Assembly: GCF_001905735.1 (NCBI RefSeq)
Contig: NZ_LISW01000007.1
Coordinates: 85,600-149,599 of the forward strand
DNA: 64,000 nt
Origin: Streptomyces sp. CB01249
Lineage (GTDB): Bacteria; Actinomycetota; Actinomycetes; Streptomycetales; Streptomycetaceae
Direction: 5' to 3'
In this document: in pieces, positions 22,259-30,134 of the stretch
Layout: each line of letters starts with the position of its first letter
How positions within the stretch are numbered: the first letter of the stretch is position 1
Notes under the pieces: model-generated
What the model saw: the letters and a program-made list of their open reading frames with translations, nothing else
Database searches by the model: none
What the model was told of the DNA's origin: nothing
Program-made: the position numbers and the translations under genes

Positions 22259-23791
22259 TCAGCCGCCCCGGACCTCCATCTGGCGTTCCAGCTGCCGGCG
22301 CAGCTCGACGGGCAGCGGGTGGTGCGGTCCGTAGGTGCGCTCGGTGTCGTACAGCAGGGACTGGAGCTGGGCGCGCGCGTTCGCGTGGTCGCCGAGGGCG
22401 AGCAGCAGCTGCCCGATGCGGTGGCGGATCTCGTACGAGCGTGCCGGGTCGTTGCCCGTGGCGTACTGGTTCTCGTAGTACGGCAGCACCGCGCGGTACT
22501 CCGCGAGCGCGGCGGCGGGTTCGCCGAGCTGTTCCAGGCACTGGGCGACGTCGCAGCGGTAGCCGAGGGTCTGCGGGTCGGCGGAGCCCGCCTCGGCGGC
22601 CCGGTCGTCGGCGAGCCGGCGCAGTTCGGGCAGGGCGCGGCGGTACTGCCCGTCGTCCATGAGGGTCGCCGCGTACTGCTTGCGCAGGATGCGGACCACC
22701 GGGGAGCCGGAGCCGTGCTGTTCGGCGGCGACCGGGAGGAGCCCGCCGAGCATGTCCACGGCCTGGGTGATGCGGCCCTCGCCGAGGAGCCGCTTGACCT
22801 CGTCCACGGCGGCGGCGACGTCCGTACGCGCGGGCGGGGTGGCGGGCATGGCGGGCGGCGGGACCGTGGCGCGGTCGGGCCAGGGGGCGTGCGGGCGCAG
22901 GAAGGGGCGGGTGGGGTCGAGCGGCCCGGCGGGCGGCCGGGAGCCGCGCGCGGGCAGCAGCGGGGCGAGGTGTTCGTACACCTCCTGGGCGCTGTCCGGG
23001 CGGTGCTGCGGGTCCTTGGCGAGCAGCCGCAGCACGAGCGCTTCCAGCGCCTCGGGGATGTCGGGCCGGATCCGGCGGACCGGCAGCGGCGGTTCGTACA
23101 GGTGCCGGTGCAGCACCCCGAGGGCGGTGGACCCGGCGAACGGCACGTCACCGCTGAGCAGTTCGTGCAGCAGGACGCCGAGTGCGTAGAGGTCGGTGTA
23201 CGGGCCGACCGCGCCGCCCATGGCCTGCTCGGGGGCCATGTAGGCCGGGGAGCCGATGGGCGAACCGGTGTGCGTGAGGCGGGTGGTGTCGGTGTCGAGG
23301 ACGGACGCGACGCCGAGGTCGAGGACGAGCACGGTGCCGTCCGGACGGACCATCACGTTACGGGGCTTGAGGTCGCGGTGGACGATCGGCACGGCGTGAA
23401 CGGCGCTGAGGACGGCGCACAGCTGCGCGGCCACCGCGACGGCCCAGGGCCAGGGGTACGGATCGTGCTCGGCGAGGTGGTCGCCGAGGTCGGCGCCCTC
23501 CACGTACTGCATGACGAGGAACAGGTCGTCGCCGTCGCTTCCCGCGTCGTGCACGGTGACCAGGCCCGGGTGGTCCACCTGCGCGGTGACCCGGCACTCG
23601 CGGACGAAGCGGCGGCGCAGTTCCTCGGCGGCCTCGCTGCCGATGGGACCGGTGACCCGGTCGGGGCGCAGCAGCTTGACCGCGACCCGGCGGTCGAGGC
23701 GCTGGTCGTAGGCCGTCCAGACCTGGCCCATGCCGCCCTGGCCGAGGATCGTCGCCAGCTCGTACCGCCCGCCGATGAGGCGACCGTTCAC
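22259..23791 (-). CDS. Hanks-type Ser/Thr protein kinase with C-terminal repeat region
   Basis: Cytoplasmic protein kinase, 510 residues. The GTG at 23791 is preceded by GGAGG and overlaps the stop of the upstream membrane-protein gene. The kinase domain covers about 9-270: glycine loop GQGGMGQVW, catalytic Lys in VAVKLL, catalytic loop VHRDLKPRN (138-145), metal site VLDLGVAS where DLG replaces the usual DFG, and activation segment ending SPAYMAPEQ. After a Pro/Ala linker, residues from about 335 are helical with Ala/Leu patterns like tetratricopeptide repeats (LRKQYAATLMDDGQYRRAL, CLEQLGEPAAALAEYRAVL). There is no membrane helix or PASTA domain. Coupling to the small membrane protein suggests they act together. 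Confidence 0.92.
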   Translation of the reverse strand: MNGRLIGGRYELATILGQGGMGQVWTAYDQRLDRRVAVKLLRPDRVTGPIGSEAAEELRRRFVRECRVTAQVDHPGLVTVHDAGSDGDDLFLVMQYVEGADLGDHLAEHDPYPWPWAVAVAAQLCAVLSAVHAVPIVHRDLKPRNVMVRPDGTVLVLDLGVASVLDTDTTRLTHTGSPIGSPAYMAPEQAMGGAVGPYTDLYALGVLLHELLSGDVPFAGSTALGVLHRHLYEPPLPVRRIRPDIPEALEALVLRLLAKDPQHRPDSAQEVYEHLAPLLPARGSRPPAGPLDPTRPFLRPHAPWPDRATVPPPAMPATPPARTDVAAAVDEVKRLLGEGRITQAVDMLGGLLPVAAEQHGSGSPVVRILRKQYAATLMDDGQYRRALPELRRLADDRAAEAGSADPQTLGYRCDVAQCLEQLGEPAAALAEYRAVLPYYENQYATGNDPARSYEIRHRIGQLLLALGDHANARAQLQSLLYDTERTYGPHHPLPVELRRQLERQMEVRGG

Positions 23792-24387
23792 CGGCCCTCC
23801 TCCTTGCGGAGGTAGTCGCTCAGCTCGTCCAGCTCGGCCCGGACCTGGTCGATGCGCTGGGGCGGGGCGGGGCGGGCGTCCTCCGGCTGGGGGCAGCGCG
23901 TGAGGGGAAGCGGGTAGGGCTGCTGCTGTCCGGGGTGCGGCGGGTAGGGCTGCTGCTGTCCGTACGGAGGCGTGGGCACGGGCACGGTGGTGACGTACGC
24001 GTGGCCGGGCCCCTGGTGCGGGAGTCCGGCGCCCTTCCCGGTCAGGCGCGCGTGGAAACGTACGTCGGCGACGAGGTAGTACACGCAGGCGGCCGCGAGG
24101 ACCAGGAGCTGCAGCGCTATGAACGCGTTGTCGAGGCTGTCCGCCTCCACCTTCGGCTCGTTCCTGCCGAGCACGGCGACCACCACACAGACGAACGCGA
24201 AGCCGGCGCCGGCCGTCCACCAGTCGAGGGTGCGGCGGCGGACGTACGCGAGCCTGATCAGCGGCGCCCACAGCAGAAAGCCCAGGGAGCAGACCGCGAT
24301 CAGGACGAACAGCACGCGCATGGAGACGATCCAGGCCCTGCCGGGGACTCGGCGCGGCGCCGTGGGCGGAAGACCCGGGGCGTACAT
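23788..24387 (-). CDS. Four-helix membrane protein with Gln/Pro-rich tail
   Basis: Conserved protein of unknown function, 199 residues. Start ATG at 24387 with GGAG five bases before. Hydrophobic segments lie at about residues 20-40, 52-70 and 78-100, with a further one near 88-100, preceded by a short Pro-rich N-terminus. The cytoplasmic tail has repeats of the form QQQPYPPHPG (GQQQPYP three times), followed by a charged amphipathic helix (RIDQVRAELDELSDYLRKEEGR region, Asp/Glu/Arg-rich). The stop overlaps the kinase start, so translation is coupled. Possible kinase anchor or substrate; this is inference from adjacency only. Confidence 0.75.
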   Translation of the reverse strand: MYAPGLPPTAPRRVPGRAWIVSMRVLFVLIAVCSLGFLLWAPLIRLAYVRRRTLDWWTAGAGFAFVCVVVAVLGRNEPKVEADSLDNAFIALQLLVLAAACVYYLVADVRFHARLTGKGAGLPHQGPGHAYVTTVPVPTPPYGQQQPYPPHPGQQQPYPLPLTRCPQPEDARPAPPQRIDQVRAELDELSDYLRKEEGR

Positions 24388-24509
24388 GGCTGCTCCTGGA
24401 TTGCCTGGTCGTGAAACGTCCGCGCGCACACGGGCGTGCGTGCGGATCCGAGCGTAAGGGGCGACACCGACAGACGCCTCGGGGTTGTGCGGAACCGTTG
24501 TGGTTCCGG

Positions 24510-26645
24510 TCACTCCGGCGTGACCGTACCGTCCGTCAGTCCGTCGTAGAGGCCCTGGACGAGCTGTCCGCCGAGGCGTCCGGCGAGCCGCAGCGCGTCC
24601 TCGAACGCGGCGAGCGCGCGGAACCGTTCGCCGTACCGCCGCTGCTCCGCCAGGGGCAGGCGCGGCAGTTGGAGGCGGCGGGCGTCGAGCCGGGTCGCGG
24701 TGGAGGCGTGGCTGCTGGCCTGCCGGTTGTTGGTGGTGCCGCGCAGGAAGCCGGCGAGGAACCAGGGGTCGAGCACGGCCGGGTCGGGGCGCAGCAGCTG
24801 GAGGTTGCGGCCGAGCGCGGCGCCCGCGGTGGCCTCGTCCACGACCCGGACGACGGTGACGCCGCCGAGCACGGGAACGACGACGTCGCCCGCCTCGACC
24901 AGGACGGGCTCCTCGGGGGCGCCGGTGGCCGGGGCGCCGGAGGGCGGTGTGCCGCCCAGCACGTCGTGCTCGGTGAGAACGGGGCCGGTCCCGGTGCCGG
25001 CGCCTCCGTGGCGCAGCTGGAGGGCACCCGCGCGGGCGAGTTCGCCGAGGGTGGTGAGCGGGCGGTGTGCGGGTGCGGTGGGCGCGGGGGGCGGCGGGGT
25101 GAGGCTCGTGGCGAGGCCCAGGGTCGTGGTCAGCCGCTCCCGTACGACGACGAGCTCGGCGGGTCCGCCGGTGGCTGCGGGGGACGGGAGGTGGCGGGCG
25201 GGGGCGAGGTCCACGTCGTCGTCGAGGAGTTCGATGACGGGGACGGTGCGGGAGGCGGCGGAGTGCGGTGCCGTGGGCTGCGGCTGCTGTCCCTCGTACG
25301 CGTGCCAGGCGTCGAGCACCGCGTGGCGCAGGGCGGTCAGGTCGAGGCGGTCCCGGCCGCCGCCGGTGGTCTGCTCGGCGGGCTCCGCGGTGTCGATCAG
25401 CAGCAGTTCGGGCGTGGGCTGCGGCTCGGCGCCGGGCCTGCGGAGCACCCACAGGTGGAGCGGGATGCCGTACGGGGGCGCGGCGCCGGCCGGGAGCGCG
25501 ATGACGGCGCGCAGGGCTCCCCGGCGCAGGAGGTCGGCGCGGATACGGCGGCCGGAGCGGCGGGAGGCGGCGGCGGGCGGCATCAGGAGGACGGCGGTGC
25601 CGCCGTCGCGCAGCCGGGCCAGCGCGTGCTGCACCCAGGCGAGTTCGGACTCGGTGCGGGCGGGGAAGCCGTACTCCCAGCGCGGGTCGTAGGCGAGTTC
25701 GTCGTGGCCCCAGTTGCGCTCGTTGAACGGCGGGTGGCAGAGCACCGCGTCGGCGGCCAGGCGCGGGAAGGCGTCGGTGCGCAGGGTGTCCCCGGTGCGC
25801 ACGTCGAGGGTGCGCTCGCCGGGGGCGGTGCGCGGGGTGTCCGCGGTGCGCAGGGCGAGGCGGAGCGCGGTGACGGCGGCGAGGCCGGGGTCGCTCTCCT
25901 GGGCGTGGAGGGCGGTGGGGCTACTCGTGGCGTCGGGGGCTCCCGCGGCGTCCGCCGGGCCGAGGGCCGCGGTCAGCAGGGCGCCGGTGCCCGCCGCCGG
26001 GTCGAGCACCGTGCGCACGCCGGGTCCGCCGGTGCCGGCCAGCTCCGCCATCAGTTCGGCGAGCCCGGGCGGGGTGAGCGTGTACTGGCGCGGGTTGGCG
26101 TCGAGCTGACGGCCGAGCAGGAACTCGTACGTCTCGTGGACGCCGGTCCCGGCGGTCCCGGCGGCCAGCTCGGCGGCGCCGCGCAGCAGCGGCACGGACG
26201 GCAGGAGCTCGGCGCGGTCCGGGGTGCGGACGGCGCGCCCGTTCCCTGCGGGGCCGAAGCGGTCGGCGAGGGCGTCGTCCAGGGCGAGCGAGAGCACCCC
26301 GGCCATCCGCTCGTCGGACACACCGGTGATCTCCCGCCAGGCGGCGGGGCTGCGGTTCACCAGGAGCAGGGCGCAGCCGGTGTGGACGAGGGCGGTGACG
26401 GGGCCCGCCGGGTGGCCGGCGAGCTGCTGCCAGACGCGTTCGCGGAGGGGGACCTCGACCAGCTTGCCCTGGTCGCGCAGCCACCGCTCGACCTCGGACA
26501 GGGCGAAGGACGGGCTGGTCTCGGTGCCGCCCACGGGCTGGGGGAAGTCGGCGTGCCGGCGGCGCCAGTTGCTGACGGCGGCGCGCCCCACGCCCGCCAG
26601 GCGGGCGATCCCGGCGGCGGTCACCTCTGTCGCGTTCTCCGGCAC
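24510..26645 (-). CDS. HTH - N6-adenine DNA methylase - specificity-domain fusion
   Basis: Type I-like modification protein, 711 residues, start GTG at 26645 (GGGAGA upstream). Residues 8-60 form a DNA-binding helix-turn-helix (GIARLAGVGRAAVSNWRRR). The HsdM-type methylase follows: SAM motif VLDPAAGTGALL (215-221) and catalytic region VLCHPPFNERNWG near 304, where the Asn of the normal NPPF motif is His (codon CAC at 25734-25736). The C-terminal 180 residues look like half an HsdS target-recognition unit (GDVVVPVLGG, LQLLRPDP, RLQLPRLPLAEQRRYGERF). No restriction subunit is nearby. Either an orphan methylase with an altered active site or a DNA-binding protein that no longer methylates. Family is certain; activity is not. 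Confidence 0.85.
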   Translation of the reverse strand: MPENATEVTAAGIARLAGVGRAAVSNWRRRHADFPQPVGGTETSPSFALSEVERWLRDQGKLVEVPLRERVWQQLAGHPAGPVTALVHTGCALLLVNRSPAAWREITGVSDERMAGVLSLALDDALADRFGPAGNGRAVRTPDRAELLPSVPLLRGAAELAAGTAGTGVHETYEFLLGRQLDANPRQYTLTPPGLAELMAELAGTGGPGVRTVLDPAAGTGALLTAALGPADAAGAPDATSSPTALHAQESDPGLAAVTALRLALRTADTPRTAPGERTLDVRTGDTLRTDAFPRLAADAVLCHPPFNERNWGHDELAYDPRWEYGFPARTESELAWVQHALARLRDGGTAVLLMPPAAASRRSGRRIRADLLRRGALRAVIALPAGAAPPYGIPLHLWVLRRPGAEPQPTPELLLIDTAEPAEQTTGGGRDRLDLTALRHAVLDAWHAYEGQQPQPTAPHSAASRTVPVIELLDDDVDLAPARHLPSPAATGGPAELVVVRERLTTTLGLATSLTPPPPAPTAPAHRPLTTLGELARAGALQLRHGGAGTGTGPVLTEHDVLGGTPPSGAPATGAPEEPVLVEAGDVVVPVLGGVTVVRVVDEATAGAALGRNLQLLRPDPAVLDPWFLAGFLRGTTNNRQASSHASTATRLDARRLQLPRLPLAEQRRYGERFRALAAFEDALRLAGRLGGQLVQGLYDGLTDGTVTPE

Positions 26646-26751
26646 TTGCTGTCTCCCTGTGCTGTACCGCTGGCGGGTCGGGGCGAGCATACCGACCCGT
26701 ACACAGCAGCGCACTCGCCATCGATTCACGGCGTGCACGAACCTGTTTCGC

Positions 26752-26790
26752 GTGAACCGTGTTGACTCGGTTCACAGATGATGCTGTGAT
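26752..26790 (+). promoter_or_regulatory. Promoter with overlapping palindromic operator
   Basis: TTGACT (26762-26767) and TGTGAT (26785-26790) are spaced by exactly 17 bases, a strong housekeeping-type promoter for the gene at 26866. The inverted repeat GTGAACCG (26752-26759) and CGGTTCAC (26768-26775) surrounds the -35 element, so a dimeric regulator bound there would block polymerase. It lies in the divergent region with the methylase gene. Confidence 0.6.
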
Positions 26791-26865
26791 TGACCCGTCG
26801 CTGAACGAGCGGCATCAGGTGGATCCGCTCACCACTTCATCCCGTACTTGCCGAAGGGCACAGCC

Positions 26866-27744
26866 ATGTCCCAGTTCACGCAGCCGCCGCAGTCCCCGCA
26901 GCCCCCGCACTCCCAGCCGCAGCAGCCGTACGGCCCCGCTCACGCGCCCGGCCTGCGCCCCGCGCGCAACGGACTGGGCATCGCCGCCCTGATCCTCGGG
27001 CTCATCGGTGCGGTGTCGGGCCTGATCCCGTTCCTCTTCTGGCTGGCGGGCATCCTCGGGACGATCGCGCTGATCCTGGGGCTCGTGGGCCGGGGCCGCG
27101 CCAAGAGGGGCGAGGCGACGAACAAGAAGATGGCCACGTTCGGCACGGTCCTCGCGCTGATCGCGCTGATCATGTCGGTGGTCGGCGCGGTGATCACCTT
27201 CAAGGCGGTGGACGACGCGGTGGACGACCTGAACAAGGCGGTGTCGGACACGAAGACGTCCGCGAAGCCGAAGGCGGGCGAGGACGCCGGCAAGGGCGCG
27301 GAGAAGGAGAAGTCCGGCGACGACAAGGCCGGCAAGGAGGAGAAGCCCACCGGTGAGGCACTGGAGGCCGGTGACGCGATCGTGTACGACGACGACCTCA
27401 CGGTCACGGTGGGCGACGCGACGAAGTACTCCCCCGGCGAGTTCGCGGCCGGTCACACCAAGGGCAACAAGGCGTACCAGGTCGCCGTGGTGATCGAGAA
27501 CGCGGGCAAGGAGAAGTTCGACTCGGCGCTGGTCACCGTCGAGGGACGGGCCGGGAAGGACGGGGTCGACGCGGAGCAGATCTTCGACGACAAGGTCGGC
27601 TCGGGCTTCACCGGCACGATCCTGCCGGGCAAGAAGGTCACGGTGCTCTACGCGTTCGACGCACCGGCCGACGCGAAGAACCTCACCGTGGAGGTCAGCC
27701 CCAGCTTCACGTACGACTCGACGCAGTGGGACCTGAAGCTCTGA
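26866..27744 (+). CDS. DUF4190/DUF4352-type membrane-anchored protein
   Basis: Exported, membrane-anchored protein of unknown function, 292 residues. The ATG at 26866 is chosen over one six codons earlier because AAGG precedes it and the Gln/Pro-rich opening (SQFTQPPQSPQPP) is typical. Two membrane helices (about 37-62 and 80-105) form a DUF4190 unit with a Lys/Arg-rich loop between (GRGRAKRGEATNKK). A Lys/Glu-rich linker (about 118-165) leads to a beta-rich DUF4352-like domain (about 170-292) presumably outside the membrane (VTVGDATKY, YQVAVVIENAG). Transcribed alone from a clear promoter and ended by a strong hairpin. Confidence 0.82.
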   Translation: MSQFTQPPQSPQPPHSQPQQPYGPAHAPGLRPARNGLGIAALILGLIGAVSGLIPFLFWLAGILGTIALILGLVGRGRAKRGEATNKKMATFGTVLALIALIMSVVGAVITFKAVDDAVDDLNKAVSDTKTSAKPKAGEDAGKGAEKEKSGDDKAGKEEKPTGEALEAGDAIVYDDDLTVTVGDATKYSPGEFAAGHTKGNKAYQVAVVIENAGKEKFDSALVTVEGRAGKDGVDAEQIFDDKVGSGFTGTILPGKKVTVLYAFDAPADAKNLTVEVSPSFTYDSTQWDLKL

Positions 27745-27771
27745 CCCGCGCAGCGTGCCCGGCCCCCGCGG

Positions 27772-27794
27772 AACCCGCCCCCAGGGCGGGTTTT
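27772..27794. terminator. Bidirectional terminator between convergent genes
   Basis: AACCCGCCC (27772-27780) pairs with GGGCGGGTT (27784-27792) around a three-base loop, flanked by T on the plus strand and A on the other side, between genes ending at 27744 and 27805. Confidence 0.85.
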
Positions 27795-27804
27795 CCGCGT
27801 CGGC

Positions 27805-28425
27805 TCAGCCCTCGCGCTCCCCCGGCCAGGCGGCCAGCGCCAGTTCGGCGATCTCGGCCAGCTCCTCCGGGCCCGCCCCGTCGCAGGAGCGCTGCGACAT
27901 GCCCTGGACGACTGTCGCGAAGTACCCGGCGAGGGCCCGGGGGTTCACCCGCGCCGGCAGTTCGCCCGCGCGCTGCGCGTCCCGCAGCCGCGCTTCCCAG
28001 GCCGTGATGTTGGAGTTGCGCACGCCCCTCAGACGGTCGGCCACCCCGGCGTCCTGCGGGGTGACGTTCGCGGCCCCCCTGATCACCATGCAGCCCGCCG
28101 GGTGCGAGCGGTCCGCGTAGATCCGCGCGGCCTCCCGCAGGAGGCGTGCGAACGCGCGGTAGGCCGTGGGCTCCTGTTCCAGGGCGTCGCGCATGAAGGT
28201 CCCGACGGGCGTCCTCCCGTACGCGGCGACCGCCTCCTCGAAGAGCGACCGCTTGTCGCCGAACGCGGCGTAGAGGCTCGCGGGCCGGATGCCCATCGCC
28301 TCCGTCAGCTCACCGATCGAGGTCGCCCCGTATCCCCGCTCCCAGAACAGCCGGACGGCCGCCGCGAGCGCGGCGTCCCGGTCGAAGGAGCGCGGCCGTC
28401 CGCGCACCGCACCTGTCTCACCCAT
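27805..28425 (-). CDS. TetR-family transcriptional regulator
   Basis: Repressor of the adjacent dehydrogenase gene, by position, 206 residues. The ATG at 28425 places the helix-turn-helix at the N-terminus (about 15-60: RDAALAAAVRLFWERGYGAT, SIGELTEAMGIRPASLYAAF, GDKRSLFEEAV). The C-terminal effector domain resembles the AcrR/TetR_C_16-like type (AFARLLREAARIYADRSHPAG, CMVIRGAAN, AGYFATVVQGMSQRSCDGA). It is divergent from an SDR oxidoreductase, a common one-target arrangement. The palindrome CGTTC/GAACG between the two genes is a likely operator. Ligand unknown. Confidence 0.9.
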   Translation of the reverse strand: MGETGAVRGRPRSFDRDAALAAAVRLFWERGYGATSIGELTEAMGIRPASLYAAFGDKRSLFEEAVAAYGRTPVGTFMRDALEQEPTAYRAFARLLREAARIYADRSHPAGCMVIRGAANVTPQDAGVADRLRGVRNSNITAWEARLRDAQRAGELPARVNPRALAGYFATVVQGMSQRSCDGAGPEELAEIAELALAAWPGEREG

Positions 28426-29351: not shown

Positions 29352-30134
29352 TCAGCCGCCGCACTGCTTCAGCATCATGTCCTTGTCCGCGCTCGTCACC
29401 GGCAGGTCGTACTTCAGGGAGACCTGCGCGAAGCGGAGCACGTACGCGCAGCGGATCGGCTTGTACGGGGGGAGCCAGGTCGCGGGGCCCGCGTCGCGTT
29501 TGGCGTTGTTGGCCGGGCCGTCGACGGGGATGAGGTTGAGCGGGTCGTTGGCGATCTGCTGGCGCTTGGACTCGTTCCAGTGGGCGGCGCCCATCTGCCA
29601 GTCGTACGACAGCGGCATCACGTGGTCGATCTGGACCTTGGTCGCCTGCTGCTTGCGCCACTCGATGGTCTTGCCGGTGTACGGGTCCTTGAGCGTCATG
29701 GAGACGACCACGCACTTCGAACCGGAGCGCAGCTCGACGTCCTTGCCGTCCCGGGCGAGCAGGTCGTTGCGGGTGTCGCAGCCGTTGTGGGACAGGGGGA
29801 CGTCGTCCACCGAGTCCTTCCACGCGTACCCGAACTTGTCCCGCTCGTAACCGGTCTTGGGGCCGCGCCCCTTGGTGGCGACCTTCTCGATGATCTTCCG
29901 TGCCGCCGCACGGTCCTTGTCGGAGGTGAGGGGCGCGAGGCCGGGCTTCGTCCCGTCGTCGTTCGTCAGCGGGCTGGCGCCGAAGCCGGTGGCGGACTGG
30001 CCGCCGCCGTCCGCGCCGCCGCCGGTGGTGTCGATGTCCTTGGGCAGTTGGTCGGGGTCGCAGCCGCTCAGCGTCAGCACGGCCGTGGCGGCCAGGGCGG
30101 GGACCATCACTCGACACACGCGGGGAGATATCAC
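29352..30134 (-). CDS. Secreted HNH (DUF1524-type) nuclease lipoprotein
   Basis: Extracellular or envelope-anchored nuclease, 260 residues. The signal sequence (about 1-24, PALAATAVLTLSGC) ends in a lipobox whose Cys is near residue 25, so the protein is probably a lipoprotein. A Gly/Asp-rich linker is followed by a conserved domain with Cys pairs (NGCDTRND, GSKCVVVS) and the HNH/DUF1524 core: QIDHVMPLSYDWQMGAAHW, then IANDPLNLIPVDGPANNAKR and GPATWLPPY, ending in a Cys-containing helix. The Asp-His and the Asn-containing segment are the expected catalytic and metal residues. Streptomyces encode many such secreted nucleases; roles in DNA scavenging or mycelial turnover are inferred. Start at 30134 is tentative; a GTG at the CRVMV segment is an alternative. 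Confidence 0.88.
   Translation of the reverse strand: MISPRVCRVMVPALAATAVLTLSGCDPDQLPKDIDTTGGGADGGGQSATGFGASPLTNDDGTKPGLAPLTSDKDRAAARKIIEKVATKGRGPKTGYERDKFGYAWKDSVDDVPLSHNGCDTRNDLLARDGKDVELRSGSKCVVVSMTLKDPYTGKTIEWRKQQATKVQIDHVMPLSYDWQMGAAHWNESKRQQIANDPLNLIPVDGPANNAKRDAGPATWLPPYKPIRCAYVLRFAQVSLKYDLPVTSADKDMMLKQCGG

Follow-up and report, generated by a model that had tools for sequence, protein, structure and literature searches.

In type I-like N6-adenine methylases the asparagine of NPPF holds the target amino group, and an active N6-adenine methyltransferase is expected to have asparagine (or D, S or T) at the first position of motif IV. Pgl/BREX systems include a methylase, PglX, and a kinase, PglW. 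Dual-role methylase-regulators are already known among the type II C5-methylases. M.SsoII, as described in PMC6100179, is a C5-methylase with a regulatory domain at its N-terminus, and by binding a 15-bp site it represses its own gene; in that account the authors found the regulatory site only in SsoII-like systems. RptR is described as repressing a type I R-M defence island through a conserved site (PMC12255303). A 2013 paper that sets out the pPIWI-RE gene triad describes it without an associated methylase (PMC3702460). Three candidate methylases were deleted in S. roseosporus L30, for which one m6A motif plus scattered m6A and m4C calls are described; deletion of sroLm2 (838 aa, orphan) slowed growth on two media (PMC9240718).

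The window, by which we mean the whole 64,000-nucleotide stretch of DNA analyzed here, contains a gene that the first-pass annotation read as a fusion of an HTH, an N6-adenine methylase and a half-TRD, with histidine in place of the NPPF asparagine and no restriction partner. The annotation suggested that it may be a DNA-binding regulator or a recent mutant. The features of the locus are as follows.

22259..23791, minus strand: Ser/Thr protein kinase with C-terminal TPR, 510 aa (Pkinase and TPR; matched in 40/40 orthologue loci)
23788..24387, minus strand: small membrane-protein-like ORF, 199 aa, between the methylase-like gene and the kinase (matched in 31/40 loci)
24510..26645, minus strand: HTH - N6-adenine-methylase-like - half-TRD protein, 711 aa (ORF, Pfam, profile matches, AlphaFold model)
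24576..24920, minus strand: half-TRD, residues about 576-690 (profile match, model, dN/dS 0.13)
25191..26135, minus strand: N6_Mtase domain PF02384, residues 171-485 (Pfam E 3e-31)
25734..25736, minus strand: His304 codon CAC of HPPF, replacing the Asn of NPPF (sequence, orthologue alignment)
25983..26006, minus strand: SAM-binding motif I LDPAAGTG, residues 214-221 (D215, G219 and G221 invariant in 141/141 near-full-length orthologues)
26460..26633, minus strand: N-terminal HTH, residues 5-62, including GVGRAAVSNWRRRH (model, conservation, dN/dS 0.12)
26752..26775, no strand assigned: dyad around the element, GTGAACCG-N8-CGGTTCAC (read from the sequence)
26761..26776, minus strand: conserved 16-bp element TGTGAACCGAGTCAAC, candidate operator, 116-131 bp upstream of the start codon
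26848..27744, plus strand: divergent DUF4190/DUF4352 protein on the far side of the element (homologue in 15/40 orthologue loci)

The anatomy, reading frame, strand and coordinates given in the first-pass annotation agree with the sequence, Pfam, profile matches and a structural model. Translation starts at a GTG codon at 26645, which GGGAG precedes at Shine-Dalgarno distance. The plus strand reads GTG at 25734-25736, confirming codon CAC at residue 304 within AVLCHPPFNERNWGHD (wider context VLCHPPFNERNWG). Type I specificity-subunit profiles match the C-terminus at about residues 580-690. The domain and SAM motif I of an N6-adenine methyltransferase are both present (PF02384; motif residues in 141/141 orthologues), and so is one feature of an autoregulating, M.SsoII-like methyltransferase, an N-terminal HTH fused to a methylase fold. 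Pfam matched N6_Mtase only, with neither HsdM_N nor a C5-cytosine methyltransferase domain found in the 711-aa protein; together with the HsdM-like fold this places the protein outside the M.SsoII family proper. No Rfam match at gathering thresholds was found around the gene (24000-28000), and no published name for it was found, the presumed S. coelicolor locus tags SCO3102-SCO3105 leading to no papers.

An AlphaFold model (48 aligned sequences, mean pLDDT 87.8) shows the HTH followed by an HsdM-like fold, with a TRD-like part at the C-terminus. In the PDB it comes closest to type I M subunits (3khk, Z 30.5; PacII 7vs4, Z 30.0), by a VIA-align structure list that spans residues 65-685 and leaves the HTH outside the fold comparison. 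The intact methylase 7eew was matched over model residues 69-695 with Z 27.6 and an rmsd of 22.7, indicating that the domains match and the domain arrangement does not.

The motif IV residue was compared among orthologues as the first-pass annotation had proposed. Homologues were drawn from three sources: 150 genomes of the genus, of which 124 gave some match; 80 named records, the best of 450 confirmed stretches; and further fetched regions. Non-redundant proteins scoring at least 600 against the query were taken as orthologues (n=143, with 141 near full length). HPPF is present in 143/143, the window's own protein included, and the histidine is encoded by CAC in 117 and CAT in 26. Same-clade rows just below a score of 600 have HPPF or HPPY, apart from a few fragments that lack the motif. 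A family-wide draw gave a match at E ≤ 1e-130 in 70/150 genomes and 6/17 genera. Twenty loci of other genera, picked by hand from these matches, have HPPF (14), QPPY (3), RPPY (2) or NPPF (1), and the stretch around the single NPPF locus has no kinase. In a search reaching beyond the family, 296 genomes of the phylum yielded only distant matches outside the genus (best 34%). The histidine is not a recent mutation. It is fixed not only in the orthologue clade and the genus but also in five further genera of the family, and is written with two synonymous codons in the genus. The asparagine (or D, S or T) of an active enzyme has given way to histidine in all orthologues and to glutamine or arginine in sister rows.

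A quick tree was built from 51 rows. The kinase-linked rows with H, Q or R (n=29) form one clade without any asparagine (SH-aLRT 92), and this clade groups with a type I-linked clade with support of 100, given that we chose to root the tree on the NPPF-type clade. Single rows elsewhere have changed at the first position of motif IV too. L036, L132 and L140, none of them in the core clade, have histidine there, and further rows have Asp, Thr, Ser or Tyr; every residue seen in these single rows is one base change from AAC. L132 and L140 adjoin an HsdM homologue, so a working system may tolerate histidine. Two genomes of other genera, G480 (L342, L341) and G473 (L343, L344), carry an HPPF copy plus an RPPY or QPPY copy, and each copy comes with a separate kinase and with an element that deviates by at most 1 mismatch.

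Selection on the protein was estimated from 60 of 139 eligible pairs. dN/dS is 0.12 in the HTH, 0.13 in the TRD and 0.21 in the MTase domain. P305, P306, R310 and W312 are invariant in 141/141 near-full-length orthologues, F307 is present in 141/141, and there is little or no variation in SAM motif I, in the TP of motif X or around motif IV. The low dN/dS and the invariance around motif IV rule out simple decay of the gene. TRD identity was compared at matched methylase identity, with a 'pPIWI' group that, here and in the HTH-element comparison below, includes rows without pPIWI-RE genes. At 60-70% methylase identity the TRDs of the HPPF clade are 80% identical versus 61% and 66% in the island clades, at 70-80% the figures are 82% versus 75% and 79%, and at 80-90% the three clades are alike. 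This pattern would fit a fixed DNA target, without proving one. That an entire clade has lost the catalytic asparagine speaks against ordinary amino methylation. The SAM motif is intact, which suggests a continuing role for SAM, perhaps that of a ligand, and conservation of the SAM pocket would fit an active enzyme equally well.

The kinase is a constant companion of the gene. Its ORF overlaps that of the membrane-like protein by 4 bp, and a homologue lies inside the same 19-kb stretch in 40/40 genus loci with a mean identity of 79%. mfd was matched in 37/40 and a MazG-domain gene in 36/40 of these loci. All 19 H/Q/R loci of other genera have the kinase on the same strand, 543-1011 bp downstream. 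Judged by this conservation, the methylase-like gene and the kinase are a stable core locus, and we infer that it represents a type I-like island reduced by the loss of HsdM and HsdR. Relatives of the C-terminal region of the window kinase were found in L113, L117 and L120 (same clade) and in the type I loci L135 and L103. The idea of one kinase family for all clades held only partly, as other island loci match the window kinase in the kinase domain alone.

Thirteen neighboring proteins in the window were scanned with Pfam. HsdM, HsdS and HsdR, which together make a type I system, were not found among them, nor were PglZ or PglY/BrxC of Pgl/BREX or a pPIWI-RE gene. The absence of a restriction partner was thus upheld among these neighbors. 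A 260-residue lipoprotein-like protein (29352-30134), 2.7 kb beyond the gene start, matches GmrSD_C, a domain that takes its name from type IV restriction enzymes, and was not counted as a partner. It was matched near the gene in 33/40 orthologue loci.

The upstream regions of the orthologues share the 16-bp element. The exact 16-mer is present within 450 bp upstream in 129/143, TGTGAAC-N3-GTCAAC in 133/143, and a 13-bp core with up to 2 mismatches in 140/143. A second, weaker conserved block adjoins the element in the aligned profile, which was anchored on the 13-bp core and owes its sharpness partly to that construction. In 15/20 loci of other genera TGTGAAC-N3-GTCAAC is exact, in 19/20 it is within 1 mismatch, and the HTH is kept. 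The exact 16-mer occurs once in the strain's own genome, where a conserved site upstream of its own gene with a genome-unique exact copy matches the M.SsoII arrangement. TGTGAAC-N3-GTCAAC occurs there twice, the second time about 125 bp upstream of a paralogue with NPPA; two further sites are also 2 bases off the 16-mer. Allowing up to 3 mismatches, 19 sites were counted versus 4 for the reversed pattern. Across the 150 genomes TGTGAAC-N3-GTCAAC gave 134 matches versus 1 for the reversed pattern, and 72 of the 134 lie directly ahead of the orthologue in 72/79 orthologue genomes, a set that we listed from the 150-genome homologue search. Since the element reads TTGACT on its other strand, a promoter of the divergent gene could account for some of its conservation, and the element may partly be such a promoter. 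The next gene is divergent in 34/37 loci checked, and a DUF4190/DUF4352 homologue is present in only 15/40.

Paralogues with asparagine or other residues at motif IV reside in islands. In the mostly NPPY, type I-linked clade, similarity searches of fetched 18-kb loci found an HsdM homologue in 16/17; HsdM was confirmed by Pfam for L103 alone in this clade and for L132 outside it. The same 16 loci also encode a long protein of HsdR size. At 14 loci of the clade a 663-711-residue ORF begins within about 110 bp, although gene calls in fetched loci came from a GC-frame script, which makes starts and small genes approximate. The NPPF-type clade contains NPPF as well as NPPS, NPPA, DPPS, TPPS, YPPT and one HPPF row. 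It was wrong to label it 'pPIWI-RE' as a whole, since pPIWI-RE genes are present in 9/16 loci (L102, L119, L123, L125, L129, L130, L136, L138 and L139); 7/16 are without them, and two of these, L118 and L124, have a DUF3323/DUF2399 gene instead. The NPPA paralogue of the strain itself belongs to island L102 (G000:C1:151.7-158.4 kb), with a convergent kinase and adjoining PprPDDEXK and pPIWI_RE_Y/REase genes confirmed by profile. L132 (1956-17474) has an HPPF HTH-methylase between pPIWI-RE-like genes and HsdM with a long HsdR-sized ORF. On contig C9 of the strain's own genome (L004:622-1767), the N-terminal HTH of a ParA-like ATPase resembles the one in the methylase family (39% over 49 residues).

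Sites upstream of the paralogues vary with the HTH. For 17 paralogues outside the type I-linked clade, the site closest to the 16-mer (1 to 5 mismatches) lies 77-152 bp upstream. Among random 360-bp windows taken from these loci, about 2% contain a site with up to 3 mismatches and about 15% one with up to 5, so the weakest of the 17 sites mean little alone, though TGTGAAC and GTCAA are retained in most. In the type I-linked clade TGAAAGC-N3-GTCAA is found 75-114 bp upstream, with 17/17 rows within 3 mismatches of a pattern derived from those same rows; it does not fit L132. The HTH covaries with the element. GVGRAAVSNWRRRH, shared by the HPPF and NPPF-type clades, goes with TGTGAAC-N3-GTCAA, and GVTRATVSNWRRRH or DVGRATVTNWRRRH, found in the type I-linked clade, goes with TGAAAGC-N3-GTCAA. 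It is chiefly on account of this covariation that we propose the family's own HTH as the binder.

Some copies of the element precede defence genes. Part of the remaining 62 matches in the 150 genomes was inspected (19 stretches). Sites were found ahead of drmA of DISARM and of a long protein with Mko/Hhe-like matches; others are inside genes or ahead of unrelated genes and look like chance. PADLOC identified DrmA, DrmB and DrmC at L271, the one locus where DISARM is confirmed by profile, the other six being judged by DrmA similarity. The element lies 88-129 bp upstream of drmA in the 7 closest loci (73-100% identical to the query), and no match better than 4 mismatches was found at the 14 others (21 examined of 30 returned). 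All 7 genomes with an element ahead of drmA have an island-type HTH-methylase, in 5 of them on the same contig within about 10-48 kb, and four of these methylases (L118, L124, L126 and L139) were placed in the NPPF-type clade. An HTH-methylase is also present, elsewhere in the genome, in several of the 14 with element-less drmA. Because the seven drmA genes are one lineage and all 7 genomes have the island HTH-methylase, the element goes with this island lineage, by linkage and not by seven independent gains. At L118 (6608-7939) and L124 the NPPF-type HTH-methylases near DUF3323/DUF2399 are about 33-41 kb from the element-bearing drmA. Elsewhere, L266 (3641-9541) and L263 (3824-10027) encode a protein of about 2000 aa; the element is some 230-265 bp upstream of it, with a divergent gene of 280-304 aa on the other side, and the L266 protein matches MkoC/Hhe/PDC-S37 profiles. 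A kinase and a divergent SNF2 protein, Druantia-E-like by profiles run on L267 only, flank the element in L267 (7725-11999) and in a comparable stretch of L268.

Taken together, the best explanation is a domesticated, autoregulated and kinase-linked regulator that probably does not methylate, and we consider this account reasonably likely to be right. Of the two readings in the first-pass annotation, the regulator has gained support from the HTH-matched upstream element, the H/Q/R substitution across the kinase-linked clade and the constraint on HTH and TRD; the recent mutation is refuted. That CAC is one base from AAC is what a recent mutation or sequencing error would predict, but histidine in every orthologue, two synonymous codons and low dN/dS make either of these, or a decaying gene, extremely improbable. 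An active orphan methyltransferase is unlikely, though it deserves weight. Histidine or glutamine would then hold the target amino group, the TRD would read a conserved motif and the HTH would autoregulate as in M.SsoII. The strong conservation of the TRD and of the SAM and motif IV surroundings is what such an enzyme would show. Against it stand the loss of asparagine throughout the kinase-linked clade and, to our knowledge, the lack of any active N6/N4 methylase with His, Gln or Arg at that position. The single m6A motif reported for S. roseosporus L30 also counts against it, being assigned to SroLm1 by the authors' prediction; as far as that paper describes them, SroLm1 or SroLm2 could be the orthologue of the window gene (PMC9240718).

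A non-catalytic anti-phage sensor, in which a DNA-binding pseudo-methylase works with a kinase effector, is more doubtful still. The element would then be the site of another regulator or part of a promoter, as TTGACT on its other strand would allow. Relatives sit with HsdM or pPIWI-RE genes, and the window kinase matches PADLOC PD-T4-6 profiles, though these match Ser/Thr kinases generally. The conserved core position beside mfd does not favor a defence role, and the covariation of HTH and element points to the family's own HTH.

The domesticated regulator that we prefer would be a relative of a modification protein from horizontally acquired defence islands. It would have kept the HTH, the SAM-binding methylase fold and the TRD while the motif IV asparagine became histidine, and most likely would no longer methylate adenine in the usual way. 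The HTH would bind TGTGAACCGAGTCAAC upstream of its own operon, giving autoregulation and perhaps also control of the divergent DUF4352-type gene. The co-located TPR Ser/Thr kinase would set the activity of the methylase-like protein, and where an acquired island has the same element, cross-regulation by the core protein would be possible. Direct binding, lack of methylation, phosphorylation, cross-regulation and domestication are all steps that we infer from sequence comparison. It is possible, though we hold it only tentatively, that the Streptomycetaceae core genome keeps a kinase-controlled pseudo-methyltransferase as a transcription factor that shares its operator, and with it a defence regulon, with some pPIWI-RE and DISARM islands. 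If the shared operator is real, one 16-bp site and one HTH would offer a handle on how Streptomyces controls acquired defence systems. The finding also suggests that methylome studies of Streptomyces should test this gene before listing it among the methyltransferases.

No core, kinase-linked, catalytically altered N6-type version was found in the open-licence literature, which leaves most subscription journals outside. As characterized in the source cited above, M.SsoII is alike in fusing an N-terminal DNA-binding domain to a methylase and in having a regulatory site by its own gene, here a candidate. It differs in being an active m5C type II enzyme with a restriction partner, whereas the window protein has an N6-type fold with a TRD, histidine in motif IV, a kinase partner and a core-genome position, and no restriction partner was found for it in the scanned neighborhood. 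RptR resembles it as a transcription regulator with a conserved site tied to type I systems, but from its description is a small stand-alone protein, whereas the HTH here is part of a methylase-like protein (PMC12255303). Type I HsdM, PacII M1M2S (7vru, 7vs4) and the Vibrio vulnificus methylase 7eew share the HsdM fold and a TRD part; the window protein differs from them in its N-terminal HTH, in lacking an HsdM_N Pfam match and the Asn of NPPF, and in having no HsdS or HsdR among the scanned neighbors. Pgl/BREX likewise encodes an adenine-methylase-like protein with a Ser/Thr kinase, but its architecture is different, and PglZ and PglY are absent from the 13 scanned neighbors. The likeness to pPIWI-RE systems lies in the genes carried by the own-genome NPPA paralogue and by 9/16 NPPF-type loci, and compared with the triad as published these islands have an additional HTH-methylase and, often, a kinase.
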